Below are positions 11,977 to 20,999 of a DNA stretch of 64,000 nt, in pieces (positions within the stretch are counted from its first letter, which is position 1; each line of letters begins with the position of its first letter). The notes below the pieces were generated by a model, which saw only the letters and a program-made list of their open reading frames with translations, searched no databases and was not told the DNA's origin. The stretch covers positions 186,001 through 250,000 of the forward strand of contig CAMFLR010000006.1 of assembly GCA_945957605.1 (NCBI GenBank), given 5' to 3'. Made by a program: the position numbers and the translations under genes. The stretch is from an uncultured Isosphaeraceae bacterium (GTDB taxonomy: Bacteria; Planctomycetota; Planctomycetia; Isosphaerales; Isosphaeraceae).

Positions 11977-14337
11977 TTACTGGTCCGTCTCGATCTTCGC
12001 CCCTTCTTTCCTGGCCGCCTCGACGAACATTGCACCGTTGAAAATATCCTTGGGAAACGCATCAGCTTCAATCTTCTTAACACTCACATGCGAATAAGAA
12101 GGAGCCTCCGACTTGTTATTTGACGGCTTCTCGAGCTCCAATCCGCGTGTGACGACTTCCTCCCAGACCGACACATACCAAGAGCCATTTGACAACTTCT
12201 GAAACGTCTTCGCGTTCACTTCGGTCTTCGTCCAATCTTTTTGCCCCGGCATCATCTCCCACTCGACCTGCTTCACGGCAATGAAATCGTGGTACGGGTC
12301 AAGGGTGAAGATACGAATCCATGGCTGAACGCCACCGTCACCGGTGCCGATTTCGTCTTCCGCGCGGACTACGATCGAACGAGTAGCGACATTCGTCGCC
12401 TTGAGTCGATCGCGACGAATCAGGAGTAGCGGCCACTGTCGCTCGAAGAATTCGGGATATCTGTCGTATCCAGTACCGAGCACATGAAGCTGGCTTCCCT
12501 TGGGCGGAGTAAGCCGTGTAAGGTTGTGAGTTCGCTTGCCGTCGGTAAGCGATACATTCACCGCCTGATCAATGGGCAGCCACGCCGCGATTTGGTCGGC
12601 ATCAAACGCGAATTCTCTTTCGCCCATCACCGCCCGCTCAATATCTTTGGGACGTGGCGTGCGACGCTGATTATCCGCTCGGTAACTGCGTGGTTGGTAA
12701 AGATCAATGGCGTGGAACCTATCCGAAGTTCTTGCGTTGCACCAGTTCTCGACGAATTGCAGACTCGCCGACCAGTATTCGAGCGCGAGGGTCCCCGTGA
12801 AATCGGAGCTGACGACACGCAGATCGCGCGGGAATTTGCGGACGGAGCCTGCCTGCGAATCCAGGATATAGCGAACTTCGGCAGGTACTTCTTCCCAAAG
12901 GGACGACTTTTTCGGCTCGACGTCGACAATCTTAGTGCCTCGCGGAACACCCAGCGCAGCGAGATCGGCAGGGCCGGTGTCCGGATAGTCAAAGGTGGTC
13001 TTCTCGAACTCGGTACCGTACCGGTGCTGGTCCGCAACCTGGTAGCGGCGAAGCTTCGAGACCGGCCGTCGGGTAACATCATCAATCCAAAGTTGCTCTT
13101 TAAGACGAATCGCTCCTAGCGCATCGTGTTCGAAGGAATCGACGCGAACCGCTTTTCGTCCGTCGAGTGTGTCATACACGCAATCCCAGGATAAGGCGTT
13201 TGATTTTTTCGCCTCATCCGGCGTGAAGTAAGGAATCTTGCGGTCCACCTTCGTGAGCAAGTCGAACGCGCCTGGCGGAACCAATCTGCCAAGCGAATCT
13301 CGGATCATTCCGTAGTAATACGCGCCGCGTTTGGTGATGTCACCCTTACCGTTGTATGAATATTGCACATATTTGGCGGTATCCAGCATCGACACGGCAT
13401 TGCCATCGCGACGGAATTCGAGCCCTGTATCAAGATTCACCCATACCTCGGCGCCGCGATCATTTTTCATATGAATCCAGCGCACCGGTTGCAGTTCGAC
13501 TTTCGATTTCGACACTGCAGGTTTGGCCTGCACCGACGCCTTCGGTTCGGGATCGTCCATCATCGCGCGCGTCACTCCGGCTGCGACGATCAGCGTAACC
13601 ACGCCAATCACCGCGGCGAGTTTTGCGGCCGAAAACAATCGCGGACGTATCGTGCGCGCCGCGGCGATCGTCGCTGTCACCCATGCGGCGGGCACCGCGT
13701 CTCGAATTGCGAACGGGAAACGATTCAAAAGCATGATCATAGCTCCGTGACGAGTGAGTTGAGACCGCAACCGATCTCTTGCCCCCGCCAGGCGGCGCCG
13801 GAGTGTCGCCTCGCCGACACGCAAGATCTGAGCAGCCTCGACCTGGGGAACCCCTTCGAGGTCGCACAGAACCAACGCGCGGCGAAACTGCTCGGGTAAA
13901 CGAGCGATCGCTTCGTGCAAGGCAGCGATCGCCTCGTTGTTCATGCTTGTTCCGGAGAACACGCTCATATCGGCTCGGCCGCGTTCGCGAACTCGTCGCC
14001 GGGCCGATTCGCGGCTGCACCGTAGAGCGACGTTGTATGCGACGCGATACAACCAACCGCAGAGCGAATCCTTCACCCAAAGCGCATCGGCCCGTCGCAC
14101 GAGAATGAGAAACGTCGCCTGAAATGCGTCCTCGACGTCGGCTTCGTCGCTCAAAATATCGCGACAGACCGCCGTGACCATTGGGCCGTGGCGCGCCACG
14201 AGCACGGTGAATGCATCTTCATCGCGGTGGTAAACGAACCGCCGCAACAGCGCTACATCCGCCTGCCCCGCGACCGATTTCCCAGAAAACAGCACGTCGA
14301 GATGTCTTACAGCATCTCCTAGCCGAGTCCCTCGCAT
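11977..14337 (-). CDS. Membrane-anchored ECF sigma factor with large C-terminal domain (paralog A)
   Basis: This is a 786-residue fusion. Residues 1-100 form sigma region 2 (VEDAFQATFL in region 2.2, WLYRVAYN in region 2.4). Residues about 135-195 form region 4 with a helix-turn-helix (ARLPEQFRRALVLCDLEG, then AAQILRVGEATLRRRL). The SGKSVAG start and GPMV segment place it in the planctomycete ECF01-Gob type. A single membrane helix spans about 235-258. The last 520 or so residues are predicted to lie outside the cytoplasm and match no domain I know; parts resemble beta-sandwich lipoprotein-like folds. No separate anti-sigma gene is adjacent, so the ectodomain may itself control the sigma part. 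A GGAG ribosome site precedes the ATG. It is a tandem paralog of the next upstream gene. Confidence 0.85.
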   Translation of the reverse strand: MRGTRLGDAVRHLDVLFSGKSVAGQADVALLRRFVYHRDEDAFTVLVARHGPMVTAVCRDILSDEADVEDAFQATFLILVRRADALWVKDSLCGWLYRVAYNVALRCSRESARRRVRERGRADMSVFSGTSMNNEAIAALHEAIARLPEQFRRALVLCDLEGVPQVEAAQILRVGEATLRRRLAGARDRLRSQLTRHGAMIMLLNRFPFAIRDAVPAAWVTATIAAARTIRPRLFSAAKLAAVIGVVTLIVAAGVTRAMMDDPEPKASVQAKPAVSKSKVELQPVRWIHMKNDRGAEVWVNLDTGLEFRRDGNAVSMLDTAKYVQYSYNGKGDITKRGAYYYGMIRDSLGRLVPPGAFDLLTKVDRKIPYFTPDEAKKSNALSWDCVYDTLDGRKAVRVDSFEHDALGAIRLKEQLWIDDVTRRPVSKLRRYQVADQHRYGTEFEKTTFDYPDTGPADLAALGVPRGTKIVDVEPKKSSLWEEVPAEVRYILDSQAGSVRKFPRDLRVVSSDFTGTLALEYWSASLQFVENWCNARTSDRFHAIDLYQPRSYRADNQRRTPRPKDIERAVMGEREFAFDADQIAAWLPIDQAVNVSLTDGKRTHNLTRLTPPKGSQLHVLGTGYDRYPEFFERQWPLLLIRRDRLKATNVATRSIVVRAEDEIGTGDGGVQPWIRIFTLDPYHDFIAVKQVEWEMMPGQKDWTKTEVNAKTFQKLSNGSWYVSVWEEVVTRGLELEKPSNNKSEAPSYSHVSVKKIEADAFPKDIFNGAMFVEAARKEGAKIETDQ

Positions 14338-14447
14338 GGCGCTCCGTCTCCGCCTGGCTCAATCTTCTGCCCTAAAAAGAGCGCCCGCGAGGAAATCCGA
14401 TCATCTTTTTTCCAGATTCCTGATGATATTGCCCAGCAAGTCCGCAA

Positions 14448-16829
14448 TCAATTCGGCTCGATCTTCGCTCCCTCCTTCTTCGCCGCCTCCAAAAACGCCG
14501 GGCCATCGAAGATCTTGTTAGGAAATTCGTTGGCGCGCAACGGTTTCACGTCGACGCGCGTAAACCCCGTTCTGTCTGGTTTTTTCGTCGGGGGCTTCTC
14601 GCGTTCCAATCCTCTCGTGAGCGTTTCTTCCCAGAGCGACACATACCAGGATCCATTAGGAAGTTGCTTGAACCCTCGTGCGATCTTTACTTCAACTTGC
14701 CAGGAATCGTTGTCGAACTCCTTTCGCCACGTCTCTTCCTTGATCATGGTCCAGTCGTGCGTGGGGTCGATCGTGTGATACTTGGGATACGGCACGTTCT
14801 TATTTCCCACCGAAAGCGTTCCGTTCGACTTGATCACAATTGCACCCGCCGGCGTGTCTGCAGCGGAAGGCATGACTTCCAGATTCATGAGCAATCGGTG
14901 ATAGATCGACCATTGTTCGTCAAAGAGCTGGGGAAAGCTATCGTACGAGTCATCCATCACGTGCACGCGGAGATCATTTTCACCAAAACGCGTCAGGTGA
15001 TACGTCATCTCGCCCGTTGCCAGTCCGGTGTTCGTCGACTTCTTGACGGGAAACCAGGCGGCGACGCGGTCGGAATCAAAACTGCCATCGGGAGCGTTCT
15101 TAAGCGTGGGAAACAGATCATCCGGGCGTTCGCCGAAGTTCTGATTGTCGGCCCGGAAATTCTGGCCCTGCGAATAAGGTAGCGAGCCACGACCGCTGTT
15201 GAGAATTCTATTGCAATATCGATTCACATAATTCTCGGTAACCGACGTATATTCGAGGTGAATCACGCCGCGACGGTCCTTGGTTACAACGCGAAGGTTG
15301 CGGGGAAACTTGCGAATCGCCGCGATTTCCCCTTCGATCACTCGGCGAATCTCCGGCGCTTGATCGGCAATGCGGCTCGATTTCTGCTTTTCGGAATCGA
15401 CGATCGGCAAGTTCTTTGGCACACCGAGCGCAGCGAGATCGCTCGGACCGGTTTCGGGATAGTCGTAATCAATGGTCTGAAAAACCTTGCCGTATTGCTG
15501 CTGTTCGCCGAGCTGGTATCGCTTTTTCTCACGCACCTTGCAGCGAGTTTCGGCGTCGTACCAGGCTTGGCGTCTGATTCGCAAAGCACCAAGCGCATCG
15601 CGTTCCCAAACGTCGAGCCGAATCATTTTGCGGCCGTCGACCGTGTCGAAATTGAAGTCTTGCGGCAGCACCATCGGAATTGCGCGAAGTGCATCGGGCG
15701 TGCGCGAGGGTACGCGCAGTGTCGGTTTGAGCACGAGATCATCGCCACTGGGAACGACGTATCGTCCCAATTCGTCCTTTTGACCACTTAGCCAGCTCAG
15801 ACGCGACTTCACGATCGACTTGCTGTCCTTCTCATACTCAAGCCGCTCGCGTTTTGCGGCGTCGACCATCGTTACGCGATCTTCGAATCGTCCTACTTCG
15901 ATGCCTGTGTCGCAATTCGCCCATCCCTCATCGCCACGATCCGATTTGAAATGGAACCAGCGCACCGGCGTGGTAACGATTGCTTTTTTCACTTCAGGCG
16001 TGGGAGCAGCAGGCTTTGGCATCACCGCAACAGGACGCGGTTCATCGCGGCTTTGGGCCGACGCAATGCTCAGCGCCGAAACCAGGCTGGCGACGATCAA
16101 GACTCCCGCGAATTTCATCAATGACGACGACACCGGCCGAACGAAACGGGCGGCGCGTGCGGTGGCCTCGAGCCATCCGGCCGGCAGTTGGGTCGACATC
16201 CGCAATTGCAAACGATTGAGCAGCATGGGGAGAGCACCGTGGCGGGAAAGGTGGTTTTTGAGCCGTTCCCGCGCGTGGGCTAGCCGCCGCCGCAGAGTCG
16301 CCTCGCCGCAGCGCAACAGTTGCGCGGCTTCGAGCTGCGGCATCCCCTCGAGATCGCACATGACCAGCGGTTTGCGAAACCGCTCAGGCAGCCGGGCGAT
16401 CGCTTCGTGAAGATCGGCGAATTCGTCTGTGTCGGTCGAAGTTTCGGCAACAACGCTGAGATCTGCCGCCGGTTGCTCCCTCTCGCGCAATTTTCCGGCA
16501 TTGCGCCGGACGCGAAGCGCAGTGTTGTAAGCAACGCGGTAGAGCCAGCCTCCCAGCGATTCTTCCACCCAGAGCGAACCCGCGCGGCGGACCAGCGCGA
16601 GGAACGTGGTTTGAAACGCGTCTTCAACGTCGCGTGGATCGCGCAAAATGTCGCGACAGACAGCCCAAACCATCGGGCCGTGCCGCGCAACGATCACGCC
16701 AAACGCCTCTTCGTCCTGCCCGGCGACAAAGCGCCTGAGCAAGCTCGCATCCCCCTGCCCCGCGACCGACTTCCCCGAAAACAGCACGTGAATGTGCCGC
16801 ACCGTCTCGCCGATCCGCGTGCTCGCCAT
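14448..16829 (-). CDS. Membrane-anchored ECF sigma factor with large C-terminal domain (paralog B)
   Basis: This 793-residue protein has the same plan as its downstream neighbour and aligns to it without gaps over residues 1-200. Sigma region 2 includes VEDAFQTTFLALVRRA and GGWLYRVAYNTALR; region 4 includes EAAQLLRCGEATLRRRL. One membrane helix spans about 236-258. The long C-terminal domain shares motifs with paralog A: VRW-x-H/F near its start, TGPSDLAALGVP in the middle, and NGSWYVSLWEE near the end. This ectodomain conservation shows that the whole fusion was duplicated, not only the sigma part. The genes are 110 bp apart with no clear terminator between, so co-transcription is possible. 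The signal sensed and the target promoters are unknown. Confidence 0.85.
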   Translation of the reverse strand: MASTRIGETVRHIHVLFSGKSVAGQGDASLLRRFVAGQDEEAFGVIVARHGPMVWAVCRDILRDPRDVEDAFQTTFLALVRRAGSLWVEESLGGWLYRVAYNTALRVRRNAGKLREREQPAADLSVVAETSTDTDEFADLHEAIARLPERFRKPLVMCDLEGMPQLEAAQLLRCGEATLRRRLAHARERLKNHLSRHGALPMLLNRLQLRMSTQLPAGWLEATARAARFVRPVSSSLMKFAGVLIVASLVSALSIASAQSRDEPRPVAVMPKPAAPTPEVKKAIVTTPVRWFHFKSDRGDEGWANCDTGIEVGRFEDRVTMVDAAKRERLEYEKDSKSIVKSRLSWLSGQKDELGRYVVPSGDDLVLKPTLRVPSRTPDALRAIPMVLPQDFNFDTVDGRKMIRLDVWERDALGALRIRRQAWYDAETRCKVREKKRYQLGEQQQYGKVFQTIDYDYPETGPSDLAALGVPKNLPIVDSEKQKSSRIADQAPEIRRVIEGEIAAIRKFPRNLRVVTKDRRGVIHLEYTSVTENYVNRYCNRILNSGRGSLPYSQGQNFRADNQNFGERPDDLFPTLKNAPDGSFDSDRVAAWFPVKKSTNTGLATGEMTYHLTRFGENDLRVHVMDDSYDSFPQLFDEQWSIYHRLLMNLEVMPSAADTPAGAIVIKSNGTLSVGNKNVPYPKYHTIDPTHDWTMIKEETWRKEFDNDSWQVEVKIARGFKQLPNGSWYVSLWEETLTRGLEREKPPTKKPDRTGFTRVDVKPLRANEFPNKIFDGPAFLEAAKKEGAKIEPN

Positions 16830-16914
16830 GGCGTTCCTGCTCCTCGCGACGTTCGTCTTCCGAGAATAGCTAAGTCCGCCCGCACGCCCCGCCGATCATT
16901 TTTCTCCCGAACTC

Positions 16915-17604
16915 TTAAGGTTTTTCAACCAGCTCAACATTATCGACCCGCGCCACAATGTCTTGAAAATCGTCGTTCGTTGAATACTCCCAGCCCAGCA
17001 AGTAACTATGCGGCTTGATCTTGCCGGTCGCCTTGTCGCGATAGGGATAAATCATGAGCTTGTAAGGCTGCTTCGCAAGTCGCGGATTCACCGCCTTCAC
17101 AACCTTCGGTTCACTATAAACATCGCTCTCCGCCAGTCCGTCATTCGACACCCACAAGCCAAACGGCGCATCGCCAGGATCAAACGACGTCTTGGCCCCT
17201 TCATGCAGTTTGGGCGGCATGTTGGCGCCAGTTTTCACGTCCTCGGTTGTGTTCTTGGCCTTGTAGGTCCAGAGGGTCTGCTTGTCAGGCTTGCTCGCGT
17301 CGGCACCAGGACGATACCAACCGCCTCGGTTCACCGTTTCCAATCCCAGCGCGATCTCCGGAACAAACGTCACCGGCCCCGGTCCCGCCTTGCGAAACAA
17401 TCCCGGCACTTCGACTGCGGACTTCTCGACCGGATTCTTCAGGTCGCCGTACATCGAAAGCCCGTAATTGTCGCGGAGTACGACAACCCAATCCGGCTCG
17501 TTCGGGCCGGGGGCGACCTTCGGCTGCTTGGCGGTTTGCGCCAATGAGATTGAGTACGCAGATGACGCCAAAACCACCGCCAGCAACGCGAATCTTCGGC
17601 TCAT
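16915..17604 (-). CDS. Secreted protein of unknown function
   Basis: This is a 229-residue protein with a clear signal peptide (SRRFALLAVVLASSAYS, cleavage near LAQ-T). The mature part is mostly beta-rich, with many Tyr, Trp, Pro and Lys and no cysteine. I recognise no domain. The ATG at 17604 has GAGGA at good spacing. An in-frame TTG at 17619 would overlap the end of the YfhO-like gene; either way the two genes are a tight leftward pair. Downstream on the same strand come the two sigma-factor fusions, so it may belong to the same transcription unit. Confidence 0.75.
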   Translation of the reverse strand: MSRRFALLAVVLASSAYSISLAQTAKQPKVAPGPNEPDWVVVLRDNYGLSMYGDLKNPVEKSAVEVPGLFRKAGPGPVTFVPEIALGLETVNRGGWYRPGADASKPDKQTLWTYKAKNTTEDVKTGANMPPKLHEGAKTSFDPGDAPFGLWVSNDGLAESDVYSEPKVVKAVNPRLAKQPYKLMIYPYRDKATGKIKPHSYLLGWEYSTNDDFQDIVARVDNVELVEKP

Positions 17605-17615
17605 CGCAACGGTCC

Positions 17616-20579
17616 TCAAGCAGTTTGAATCATGCGAAATGGCGCGGGGCTCCGGCGCCTGAGAAACGCCCAGGTGCTTGTGACGAACATCCCGAAAACT
17701 CCCGCAGCCGACGCCATTTTGCCCACGGCGAACGATCGCGGTTGATATTCGTAAACCAGCTTATGTTTGCCCGATTCAACCGCCGCACCGCGCATCATCC
17801 GATTCACGCGAAGAATCTCGGAGGGTTGACCGTCAATCGTCAGCGTCCAGCCGGGATAGTAGACGTCCGAGAGAATCACGAATCCGGGTCGATTCATCGA
17901 GACTTCAAGCTCGACGCGCTGGGGGTTGATCAGCTTAACATTCACCGTCTCGTCAAAACCGGTCGGACCGTGCGACCGATATCGCGCGAACGCCGCACCA
18001 TTTGACGTCTCCAGAATCGCGATTGACTTCAAATCAAGGACGTGCCGCGTCTCGTCTTCCCAGAGCGAGTCGCCGTTGTAAAGCATCTCTTCCATCGGAT
18101 CCTTGCGCTGCATGCGCGAGAGACCTTCAATCGGCGGTGCCAATCGCACGTCGTGCACCACCCAGGCCCGGGGAAATGCGTTGGGATTTCGCACGATCTG
18201 GAAGTCAGAGTTGCGCAGGAATTCCTGCTGCCGCTTCTCGCTATCGGGGCCTTCCCACGCATTGGTTGGTGGGTAAATTCGCTCGATCTCTTGCAGAAAC
18301 GCGGCCGCGCCTCGCTCGGGACTTGTCCAGGGCGTGATCATCGGCAGCACAAAGTAACGCGAATTCCAGAGGTCGAATCCACGCCTTGGAAAATAGACTG
18401 GGCGATCTTCCAAGTTGAGGTGCATCTTCTGGGCGAGCGCAGGAGTGAGCTTCACCGTGAATGGCGAGAAGAACCATTCGTAATCGTAAAGCTCGGCGAC
18501 GCCCTGCGTGTGGGTGTATTCCACGTTGTACGGCAGACCATACTTGGGCTGGATCGTATCGCGTTCCCAGCGAATGAAGTCGACAACGCGTTCGTGCGAA
18601 TTTTCCTGACGCCACGCTTCCGGCCCCCAGATCGGCATGCGGTGAATTCGGTACGGCCCTGGCGCAGGATTCTGCTTCTCCGCGGCCTCAATGATCTCGA
18701 GAACCTTGGGCTTGCTCTCGAACTCGGCTTGATTGGATGTCATGACCAACCTGGCATTCGCAACCGCCAGATCGACGCCGACGATCGCGATCATCAAACA
18801 TGCGGCGAGTTGTGGTCGTTGGGAGTTGAGTCGCACGATCAACGCGAAGATAGCGAGCAACACACAACATTGCCCAAATGCAGCCACGATATTGAACCAT
18901 GCTCCGCCCGGCTCGAGCGGGCCAAACGACGATGCGAACGAATTGCGCTGAAAGATTCCGCGAATCTGACCGGCAAAAATCAGGGAGCCACACAATCCAG
19001 CAATCGAAAGCCCCGCAAGAATCTTGAACGCCCGAGACCGCCTCGCATCGTCCCTGCTCGACACACGATCCCAGCCAAAACCCGCGAGCAGCGTAACCGC
19101 CAGTACGGTAAACGTCAGCAACTTGCTGGGATAGCGAAACTGCTGGAATCCCGGAACAAATGTTGAAATGAACCAATAAAAACTACCGTCGCCATCGCGA
19201 AGATAGCCATCGAGGCGAATCGCGTTTGTATCGTAAGGATCGTGGGGGCCGACGTAGGAAGCGATCGGCGAGAAAAACCGGCCGAGCCAGAGTGGGCTAA
19301 GATATTCGCCGAACGATGCGAGCAAGGTGACGAAACCAATGATCGTCAACCACCCGCGCCAGGTTGGCCCGCGTTTGAATCCCATACCAGCGAGGGCGAG
19401 CAAGAGCGTCAGCCCACCGACATAGAGCGACGGCACCCAGATGCGATGTCCTGTCGCCGGAGGAATTACTCCGAGCCATGACCGATTGCCGTCGTTGATC
19501 GTGCCAAACACATTCGGCCACGCAAACTCGACGACGCGATACGGCTCGAGGCTAAAGGGATAAATGTCGTGCGAGCCTTCTTCAGTATTCCGGCTCGTCA
19601 GCCTCGTGAACTCGATCACTGGGAGAAGTTGGGCCGACGCCGCGAGTCCACCGAGCCCCGCAGCCACGACGAGGCCCATGTATTGCTGTGCCAGCGTTCG
19701 GGCACCGGGTTGCCGTCTTCGCCATTTATCGAAGAAATAGAATCCCGCCATAGCCCACAAACAGAGGACGCCGATGGGCACAAAAGGCGACCACGTAAAC
19801 GTGGGAACCGGGATCTTTTTGGGTCGAGCTTCGCCCAGAACGTGCGCGACAAAAATCGTCACGCCAAACCACGCGAATATGCCCATGCCAATGAGTAGCC
19901 AGTGGCGAGGTCGTAGGCGAATGCCGCTATCGTCGGGCGATTTCGGCGGCTTGCGTGTAAGCAAAAGCGCGTAGCCACCAGCGCACAATCCTTCGAGATA
20001 CGCCGCCTGCGGCTCGCCTCCGAGCACTTGCATCGCCAGAACGACGGCCAGGCCAACAATCGCGATTCGCTGTCCTTTTCTCAGCCAGGCGTCAATCGCC
20101 CAGAATCCCCACGGCACCCACGCCGCACCGACGAGATAGATGATGTTGCAATACTGAAAGAGCACCGGCGCGCCAAAGGCATAACTGAGTGCGGAGATGA
20201 CGGCCCCTGTGATGCTAATCCCCAACGATCTCGCAAAAATGAACATCCCTGCAAAGCAAAGGATTGCATGTACAATGATGTAAACGCGGGCGGCGAGTGC
20301 ATAAGGCAGAACCGCGTAAATGATTTTGCCGGGATAGAGAACGGCCGCAGTGGGATTGCCAAGCAGCGGCATACCCGCGTTCTCTTCGGTTTCCCAGAGC
20401 GGTACGCGACCCGCATCCCACTCCGACTGCACCTTCTGGTACAGCGGATAGTAGAAATGCGCAGCATCGCGATAGGCGAATTGCCGCCCGAGAATGGCGT
20501 CGCCGAAGAACGCCCAGAGGGTAAACAATCCTACGAGGGTCGCGACGATGATCGGAGCCCGGCGAGCCATCAAATTCAT
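17616..20579 (-). CDS. YfhO-like polytopic membrane protein
   Basis: This is a protein of about 987 residues with roughly twelve to fourteen hydrophobic helices in the first 620 residues and a long extracytoplasmic C-terminal part. Near the end is a beta-rich segment (PGFVILSDVYYPGWTLTIDG) and then a last membrane helix. The N-terminal pattern FAYRDAAHFYYPLYQ followed by LWETEENAGMPLLGN is characteristic of the YfhO/GT-C-like family. Bacterial YfhO proteins are linked to sugar decoration of surface polymers; the sugar and polymer here are unknown. I chose the ATG at 20579. An upstream GTG at 20606 and another ATG at 20570 are alternatives. It is the first gene of a leftward run with the secreted 229-residue protein and the sigma pair. 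Confidence 0.85.
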   Translation of the reverse strand: MNLMARRAPIIVATLVGLFTLWAFFGDAILGRQFAYRDAAHFYYPLYQKVQSEWDAGRVPLWETEENAGMPLLGNPTAAVLYPGKIIYAVLPYALAARVYIIVHAILCFAGMFIFARSLGISITGAVISALSYAFGAPVLFQYCNIIYLVGAAWVPWGFWAIDAWLRKGQRIAIVGLAVVLAMQVLGGEPQAAYLEGLCAGGYALLLTRKPPKSPDDSGIRLRPRHWLLIGMGIFAWFGVTIFVAHVLGEARPKKIPVPTFTWSPFVPIGVLCLWAMAGFYFFDKWRRRQPGARTLAQQYMGLVVAAGLGGLAASAQLLPVIEFTRLTSRNTEEGSHDIYPFSLEPYRVVEFAWPNVFGTINDGNRSWLGVIPPATGHRIWVPSLYVGGLTLLLALAGMGFKRGPTWRGWLTIIGFVTLLASFGEYLSPLWLGRFFSPIASYVGPHDPYDTNAIRLDGYLRDGDGSFYWFISTFVPGFQQFRYPSKLLTFTVLAVTLLAGFGWDRVSSRDDARRSRAFKILAGLSIAGLCGSLIFAGQIRGIFQRNSFASSFGPLEPGGAWFNIVAAFGQCCVLLAIFALIVRLNSQRPQLAACLMIAIVGVDLAVANARLVMTSNQAEFESKPKVLEIIEAAEKQNPAPGPYRIHRMPIWGPEAWRQENSHERVVDFIRWERDTIQPKYGLPYNVEYTHTQGVAELYDYEWFFSPFTVKLTPALAQKMHLNLEDRPVYFPRRGFDLWNSRYFVLPMITPWTSPERGAAAFLQEIERIYPPTNAWEGPDSEKRQQEFLRNSDFQIVRNPNAFPRAWVVHDVRLAPPIEGLSRMQRKDPMEEMLYNGDSLWEDETRHVLDLKSIAILETSNGAAFARYRSHGPTGFDETVNVKLINPQRVELEVSMNRPGFVILSDVYYPGWTLTIDGQPSEILRVNRMMRGAAVESGKHKLVYEYQPRSFAVGKMASAAGVFGMFVTSTWAFLRRRSPAPFRMIQTA

Positions 20580-20999
20580 TCCTGCCTGACTAACCTCAGC
20601 GACCACGCGCCATCACGTGCGGCCTCGACGGATTCGATCGTAACATGCCGCCCCCCGGAAACGAAAACATCCGGCGCCCTTTCTCGCGAAGTCGTCAGAG
20701 CCCTCGTTGATTCAGTTCACAAATCTCACCCGACCGCAGGGACTCGCTAATGTTTCTCGGCCGATTTAGAGAATCGCAGTGGCAATGGACACAACAATCG
20801 GCTGATTCCCGCTAAGGCCTGCTGAGACCAGTCAACGCCTCTATCTTCGATCCGTTGATCGCTCTCAGAGGCACGTTGAAGACCCTTCCACAAGAAAATC
20901 TTGGCAGGTGAATGAACGAACGCAGCTTAGGATGAGTGCGTGCGGTCTGCGTTCGGCATTCTCATGCGCACCTCCCGCTACAGATTTCGGAGCTCAAAT
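20580..20999. other. Divergent intergenic region, no gene seen
   Basis: About 420 bp separate the divergent YfhO-like and WD40-like genes. It should hold both promoters. An in-frame extension of the WD40-like gene back to a GTG at 20940 is possible. I find no repeat, RNA gene or terminator. Confidence 0.5.

Follow-up and report, generated by a model that had tools for sequence, protein, structure and literature searches.

Adjacent planctomycete sigma factor genes encode membrane-anchored proteins with predicted tandem LolA/RseB-fold ectodomains

RESULTS

Two adjacent genes join a sigma factor to a membrane helix and an ectodomain

Two neighboring genes on the minus strand of the window (the whole 64,000-nucleotide stretch of DNA analyzed here) encode proteins of the same architecture: paralog A (positions 11977-14337; 786 amino acids) and paralog B (14448-16829; 793 amino acids). 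In A, sigma region 2 (Pfam PF04542, residues 46-112; 14002-14202) and sigma region 4 (Pfam PF08281, residues 139-190; 13768-13923) carry the conserved residues Cys58 and Cys158, respectively. These regions are followed by a predicted juxtamembrane helix (residues 217-229; 13651-13689; local pLDDT of about 79-88), which the alignment places after the conserved Pro216, and by a hydrophobic transmembrane helix (residues 234-252; 13582-13638). The corresponding features of B are sigma region 2 (residues 47-112; 16494-16691), sigma region 4 (residues 139-190; 16260-16415), a transmembrane helix (residues 233-251; 16077-16133), and an extracytoplasmic part (residues 259-793; 14451-16055).

The Sigma70_r2 and Sigma70_r4_2 scores exceed the Pfam cut-offs in both proteins (36.8 and 37 bits for A, 42.3 and 43.2 bits for B), as do the scores for the NCBIfam sigma70-ECF model (TIGR02937). 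With regions 2 and 4 present and region 3 absent, A and B are ECF sigma factors (sigma-70 group 4), and each possesses a single hydrophobic helix. The fusion of a sigma factor, one membrane segment, and a large ectodomain that was originally predicted for this locus is therefore confirmed. The same prediction pointed to motifs shared by the two ectodomains, and these are not due to chance because the C-terminal halves (approximately 530 residues) are 40% identical from end to end (E 5e-121). The sigma halves are 68% identical.

As had also been claimed, Pfam detects no anti-sigma match among the neighboring open reading frames (ORFs) examined, and neither Pfam nor NCBIfam reveals a recognizable anti-sigma domain within A or B. 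The fusion genes have no conserved gene neighbors. In the window, a YfhO-type membrane protein of 996 residues (17616-20606, minus strand) precedes a 234-residue ORF (16915-17619) that is without any family match.

The sigma halves belong to a widely used Gob-type carrier

The genome of 8.8 Mb yields approximately 78 sigma region-2 matches. When residues 1-261 of A are used as the query, 20 Gob-type sigma-transmembrane fusions with long open frames are recovered, A and B included, before the scores drop sharply. All 18 of the others share the pair of sigma regions, a linker of about 60 residues, and the membrane helix. Their ectodomains are very different and unrelated, and include CarboxypepD_reg domains, Poly_export with SLBB, an HlyD-type adaptor, CarboxypepD_reg with redoxin, and unassigned sequences.

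Phylogenetically, the sigma parts of A and B form one clade with these 18 sigmas (support 100/99) to the exclusion of the sigmas from the two-gene systems described below. Furthermore, each of the five close fusions has both Cys58 and Cys158, as do nearly all of the other Gob-type sigmas of the genome (17 of 18 for Cys58), whereas the pair is absent from the sigmas of two-gene systems. A conserved cysteine in each of sigma2 and sigma4 is a described feature of ECF57, and the two residues have been proposed to link these domains (PMC8999054). Judged from its sequence, then, the sigma half is of the Gob (ECF57-like) type, as originally predicted, with the ECF57 cysteines compared by description. 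Typical of the juxtamembrane helix across the Gob chassis is the aligned motif P-x-x-[LW]-x-x-x-T.

The modeled sigma part matches solved ECF sigma structures, the best of which are SigW, sigmaE, AlgU, and CnrH taken from anti-sigma complexes. The chassis model adopts a compact conformation resembling that of an anti-sigma-bound factor. Because it was computed without a partner and has modest confidence, we do not count this conformation as evidence.

The ectodomain is predicted to comprise two LolA/RseB-fold domains

The ectodomains of A and B have no sequence match in Pfam, NCBIfam, or the PDB, and the Pfam LolA-type and MucB/RseB models match none of 14 ectodomain members, so identification proceeded by fold comparison only. 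The original prediction had left this region unassigned and proposed that its structure be modeled. AlphaFold2 produced a confident model of residues 284-786 of A (pLDDT 85.6, pTM 0.82, from 34 aligned rows), which was compared with known structures by Foldseek and VIA-align. In this model, domain 1 (residues 284-475; 12913-13488) resembles LolA, LprG, LppX, RseB, and ependymin-related proteins, with VIA Z values of about 8-9 to LprG, LppX, LolA, and ependymin-related proteins and 7.5 to RseB. Domain 2 (residues 482-786; 11980-12894) resembles LolB (Z 12.4), DUF1329 (12.3), LolA3 (11.7), and RseB (7.4). Single Z values below 8 could arise by chance, but one superfamily (LolA/LolB/LppX/RseB/MucB) accounts for most of the top 50 structural matches and covers both halves. 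Thus, contrary to the view that it cannot be assigned, the ectodomain is predicted to consist of two tandem LolA/LolB/RseB-fold domains, each an open beta half-barrel, with the relation being one of predicted fold only.

RseB and MucB, which have a LolA-type fold, act in the periplasm as lipid sensors controlling the cleavage of an anti-sigma factor (PMC7400510). The ligand of the modeled ectodomain is likely an acyl-bearing envelope molecule, either a lipid or a lipoprotein, although a LolA-type fold is no proof of lipid binding.

Most unfused relatives are encoded directly after an ECF sigma gene

Close fused homologs occur in four other genomes of the same family (Isosphaeraceae). An alignment-based scan of a contig collection recovered four fusion loci, from Isosphaeraceae, Singulisphaera, and Aquisphaera, with nearest named relatives that include Aquisphaera insulae. 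Together with the assignment of the matching genomes to the window's own family, these affiliations place the host among the planctomycetes of the Isosphaeraceae. A single-sequence scan of the same collection returned no match, nor did a search of plasmids.

Homologs that are not fused were sought with a 14-row ectodomain profile across 298 genomes of the class, and their surroundings were scanned for sigma genes. For 29 of the 35 unfused homologs, the reading frame directly before the gene, in the same orientation and nearly always overlapping it, encodes an ECF sigma. Given the density of sigma matches in the present genome, only about 1% would be expected to have such a neighbor. The partner proteins consist of a short cytoplasmic segment, one membrane helix, and then the ectodomain. 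One of them has a sub-threshold match to an NCBIfam 'anti-sigma factor' model (E 1.2e-5; 25.5 bits against a cut-off of 100). Judging from these gene arrangements, the fusions therefore unite in cis a sigma factor and a membrane partner that are separate proteins in other planctomycetes. In these operons (e.g., L031, L033, L034, and L088), the homologous double-domain ectodomain is likewise carried by a protein with a single transmembrane segment, but sigma and ectodomain are encoded by separate overlapping genes, and the sigmas come from other ECF clades that lack the cysteine pair.

The six exceptions are L025, L094, L107, L108, L109, and L112. Among these, L094 (2872-4314, plus strand, genome G267) is a full ectodomain homolog with no sigma gene nearby and an N terminus resembling a signal peptide. 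This putative signal supports export of the ectodomain and, with it, the extracytoplasmic location originally claimed for the C-terminal part of A and B. The L107, L108, and L109 matches are weak and partial. L025 (5260-6990, minus strand) is an unfused paralog on contig C18 of the same genome as A and B; it sits at a contig end and its upstream region is not visible. L112 (809-4684, minus strand, contig C1 of that genome) is a 1291-residue frame with several N-terminal membrane helices, in which the stretch at residues 642-759 matches the second LolA-like domain (E 6e-8).

Sigma and ectodomain halves have different histories

The sigma tree groups the five close fusions (A, B, and L026-L028) with a Gob sigma that bears CarboxypepD_reg, whereas it places two further fusions, L029 and L030, beside two other Gob sigmas. 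By ectodomain, the seven fusions make up a single group (100/99) that lies nearest to the two-gene partners L031 and L032. Constraining the sigma tree to a single clade of all seven fusions is rejected (p-AU 0.0004), which rules out for the sigma halves a single fusion origin followed by plain descent, even though the ectodomains do group. Moreover, the sigma half of B is closer to that of L028, from another genome, than to that of A (support 95/88 to 99/92), which rejects a recent local duplication as the source of the pair. Duplication of the entire fusion, as originally claimed, is in keeping with A, B, and the fusions closest to them, but in the wider family ectodomains have also moved between sigma carriers.

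The disagreement between the trees implies that the ectodomain either arrived on the Gob carrier twice or swapped carriers after one fusion. The trees thus indicate that its arrival on the Gob chassis, or its exchange of sigma partner, was not a single event. A simple joining of neighboring sigma and partner genes was also rejected. The two-gene sigmas form a separate group (100/99) that is not Gob-type, and HHalign detects no resemblance between the cytoplasmic linker of the fusions and that part of the partners which lies in the cytoplasm (probability 0.2%). Because of this dissimilarity, it appears that the outer part alone moved.

A promoter-like element precedes the fusion genes

The sequence GAAAAA-TGATCGG was first noticed by eye upstream of A and B and was then tested in other genes. 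On the basis of upstream comparison and pattern counts, the element upstream of A reads GAAAAAAGATGATCGG ... TTTTTAG (14372-14412, minus strand), and that upstream of B reads GAAAAATGATCGG, 18 bp, and TTAGCTA (16867-16904, minus strand). All five close fusion genes are preceded by the form TGATCGG, approximately 18 bp, TTAG, wherein TGATCGG lies 66-78 bp before the start codons of A, B, L026, L027, and L028. The sister Gob sigma gene has the same heptamer 77 bp ahead of its own start codon. The best common 8-mer among the five upstream regions has one mismatch in total, compared with a minimum of four in 40 shuffles.

Across three whole genomes (approximately 29 Mb), the pattern AAAA-N0-4-TGATCGG-N15-22-TAG has six matches, four of which precede these fusion genes. 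In the present genome, TGATCGG-N17-19-TAGNTA has three matches, one ahead of B, one ahead of the sister sigma gene, and one at another site. Other genome-wide matches (L115, L118/L121, and L123) could not be linked to a clear target gene, as judged for L115 and L123 by ORF list only. These observations suggest that TGATCGG/TTAG is a candidate autoregulated promoter of the fusion genes, although its conservation may instead reflect common descent of the upstream sequences.

For other Gob groups, no subclade-specific promoter motif reached significance. The regions upstream of L029 and L030 both contain GGATGAATCC and, 13 bp further on, AGTT, which sets them apart from the TGATCGG element of the group containing A and B. 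This arrangement may represent another promoter that serves another sigma subclade.

DISCUSSION

A proposed one-protein signaling pathway

A chain of envelope signaling that is normally made of two or three proteins appears to be packed here into one polypeptide. Specifically, we think it probable that each protein combines an ECF sigma factor, its membrane partner, and an RseB-type sensor, with the sigma factor kept tethered until it is released by proteolysis or by a conformational shift. The tandem LolA/RseB fold, together with homology to the membrane partners encoded after ECF sigma genes, makes the reading of the ectodomain as an envelope sensor much stronger.

Under this proposal, the transmembrane helix of each protein would keep the Gob-type sigma on the inner side of the membrane, while the periplasmic LolA/RseB-fold tandem would bind an acyl-bearing lipid or lipoprotein. 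A change in ligand state might then trigger sequential proteolysis or a conformational shift, after which the freed sigma half could bind core RNA polymerase and transcribe a small regulon, including its own gene, from promoters of the TGATCGG/TTAG type. In this scheme, we infer the class of ligand, inhibition by tethering, proteolytic release, and autoregulation. An inhibitory anti-sigma segment in the fusions would be hypothetical, given that their linker does not resemble the cytoplasmic segments of the partners. Proteolytic release is proposed by analogy with IutY of Pseudomonas putida, a single polypeptide that is cleaved by Prc and RseP (PMC5411451). Site-2 protease homologs (PF02163) are present in the genome, but this is weak support because they are also found in 14 of 14 control genomes.

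The main rival, which we consider rather unlikely, is that the sigma factor stays tethered and acts without cleavage, such that a ligand-induced change in the ectodomain passes through the helix to open or close a sigma2-sigma4 clamp at the membrane. A juxtamembrane helix that is both confidently predicted and conserved in motif across the Gob chassis would suit such transmission, as would the conserved cysteines if they link the two sigma domains as proposed for ECF57. ECF sigmas of another planctomycete have also been found in detergent-soluble fractions (PMC8567305). However, a tethered sigma must reach promoters from the membrane, and IutY, the characterized single-polypeptide precedent, requires proteolysis.

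Alternatively, the ectodomain could be an effector and not a sensor, serving as a lipid or lipoprotein carrier whose synthesis is regulated by the fused sigma in a self-limiting manner. Its nearest folds are indeed those of the LolA/LolB carriers, and the genes appear to be autoregulated. We nevertheless regard this as improbable, since the ectodomain is either attached to the membrane beside a sigma or, in 29 of 35 cases, borne by a transmembrane protein downstream of one, as is typical for sigma regulators, and since other Gob chassis bear unrelated ectodomains. Finally, it is very hard to credit that the sigma half lacks sigma activity and is a degenerate scaffold or a remnant that binds DNA, because, despite modest region scores and the lack of a known target gene, all regions score above curated cut-offs, the sigma halves are far better conserved than the ectodomains, and a conserved promoter-like element precedes the genes.

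Relation to known systems

A and B share the layout of IutY, an ECF243 sigma/anti-sigma fusion that we take as the working mechanistic analog, in that a single chain carries the ECF sigma in the cytosol, crosses the membrane once, and bears a regulatory domain in the periplasm. IutY differs in that its cell-surface-signaling anti-sigma part is driven by an outer-membrane siderophore receptor, whereas no such domain is recognizable in A or B. The RpoE-RseA-RseB and AlgU-MucA-MucB systems likewise connect an ECF sigma, through a link that spans the membrane, to a sensor of the LolA fold in the periplasm (RseB or MucB). These are three-protein systems in which RseB contacts RseA non-covalently, in contrast to the covalent LolA-fold pair of A and B, where no RseA-like anti-sigma domain is found.

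The actinobacterial ECF48, ECF52, and ECF53 fusions (e.g., SCO4117) also carry a C-terminal transmembrane segment and extracytoplasmic parts, and proteolytic activation has been proposed for them. Unlike A and B, they place a zinc-finger anti-sigma domain ahead of the membrane segment, and their ectodomains are of other kinds (PMC8999054). The planctomycete ECF01-Gob/ECF57 factors share with A and B the sigma type, a C-terminal extension, the absence of a separate anti-sigma gene, and the two cysteines (PMC8999054). The extensions described in the publications consulted are WD40-like repeats, which are prevalent but not universal in ECF57. A and B have none, and carry instead the transmembrane helix and double LolA fold.

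These findings bear on how planctomycete ECF sigmas without anti-sigma genes are controlled. Fold comparison gives the ectodomain a name, and the related two-gene systems indicate what the fusion replaces. If the proposed pathway is true, an envelope ligand would be coupled to transcription by a transmembrane signaling route within one protein. Perhaps Gob sigmas serve as a plug-in chassis onto which envelope sensors have repeatedly been transplanted. In this case the transplant would be an RseB-like double LolA domain, acquired from two-gene sigma systems on more than one occasion, and the outcome would be transmembrane sigma signaling by one protein with a dedicated promoter. We regard this broader idea as evenly poised between true and false. 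The occurrence of 20 such fusions in one genome suggests a large modular class.

Examples of the other ectodomains in the same genome are an HlyD/RND-adaptor (L046, 1051-2754, minus strand), Poly_export with SLBB (L039, 4676-6709, minus strand), CarboxypepD_reg repeats (L039, 1577-4564, plus strand), and CarboxypepD_reg with redoxin (L045, 914-4609, minus strand). In genome G066, a separate Gob-like sigma fusion (L111, 1374-3245, plus strand) has a C terminus that matches the second half of the ectodomain only (E 8e-6), and a second sigma frame follows it directly.
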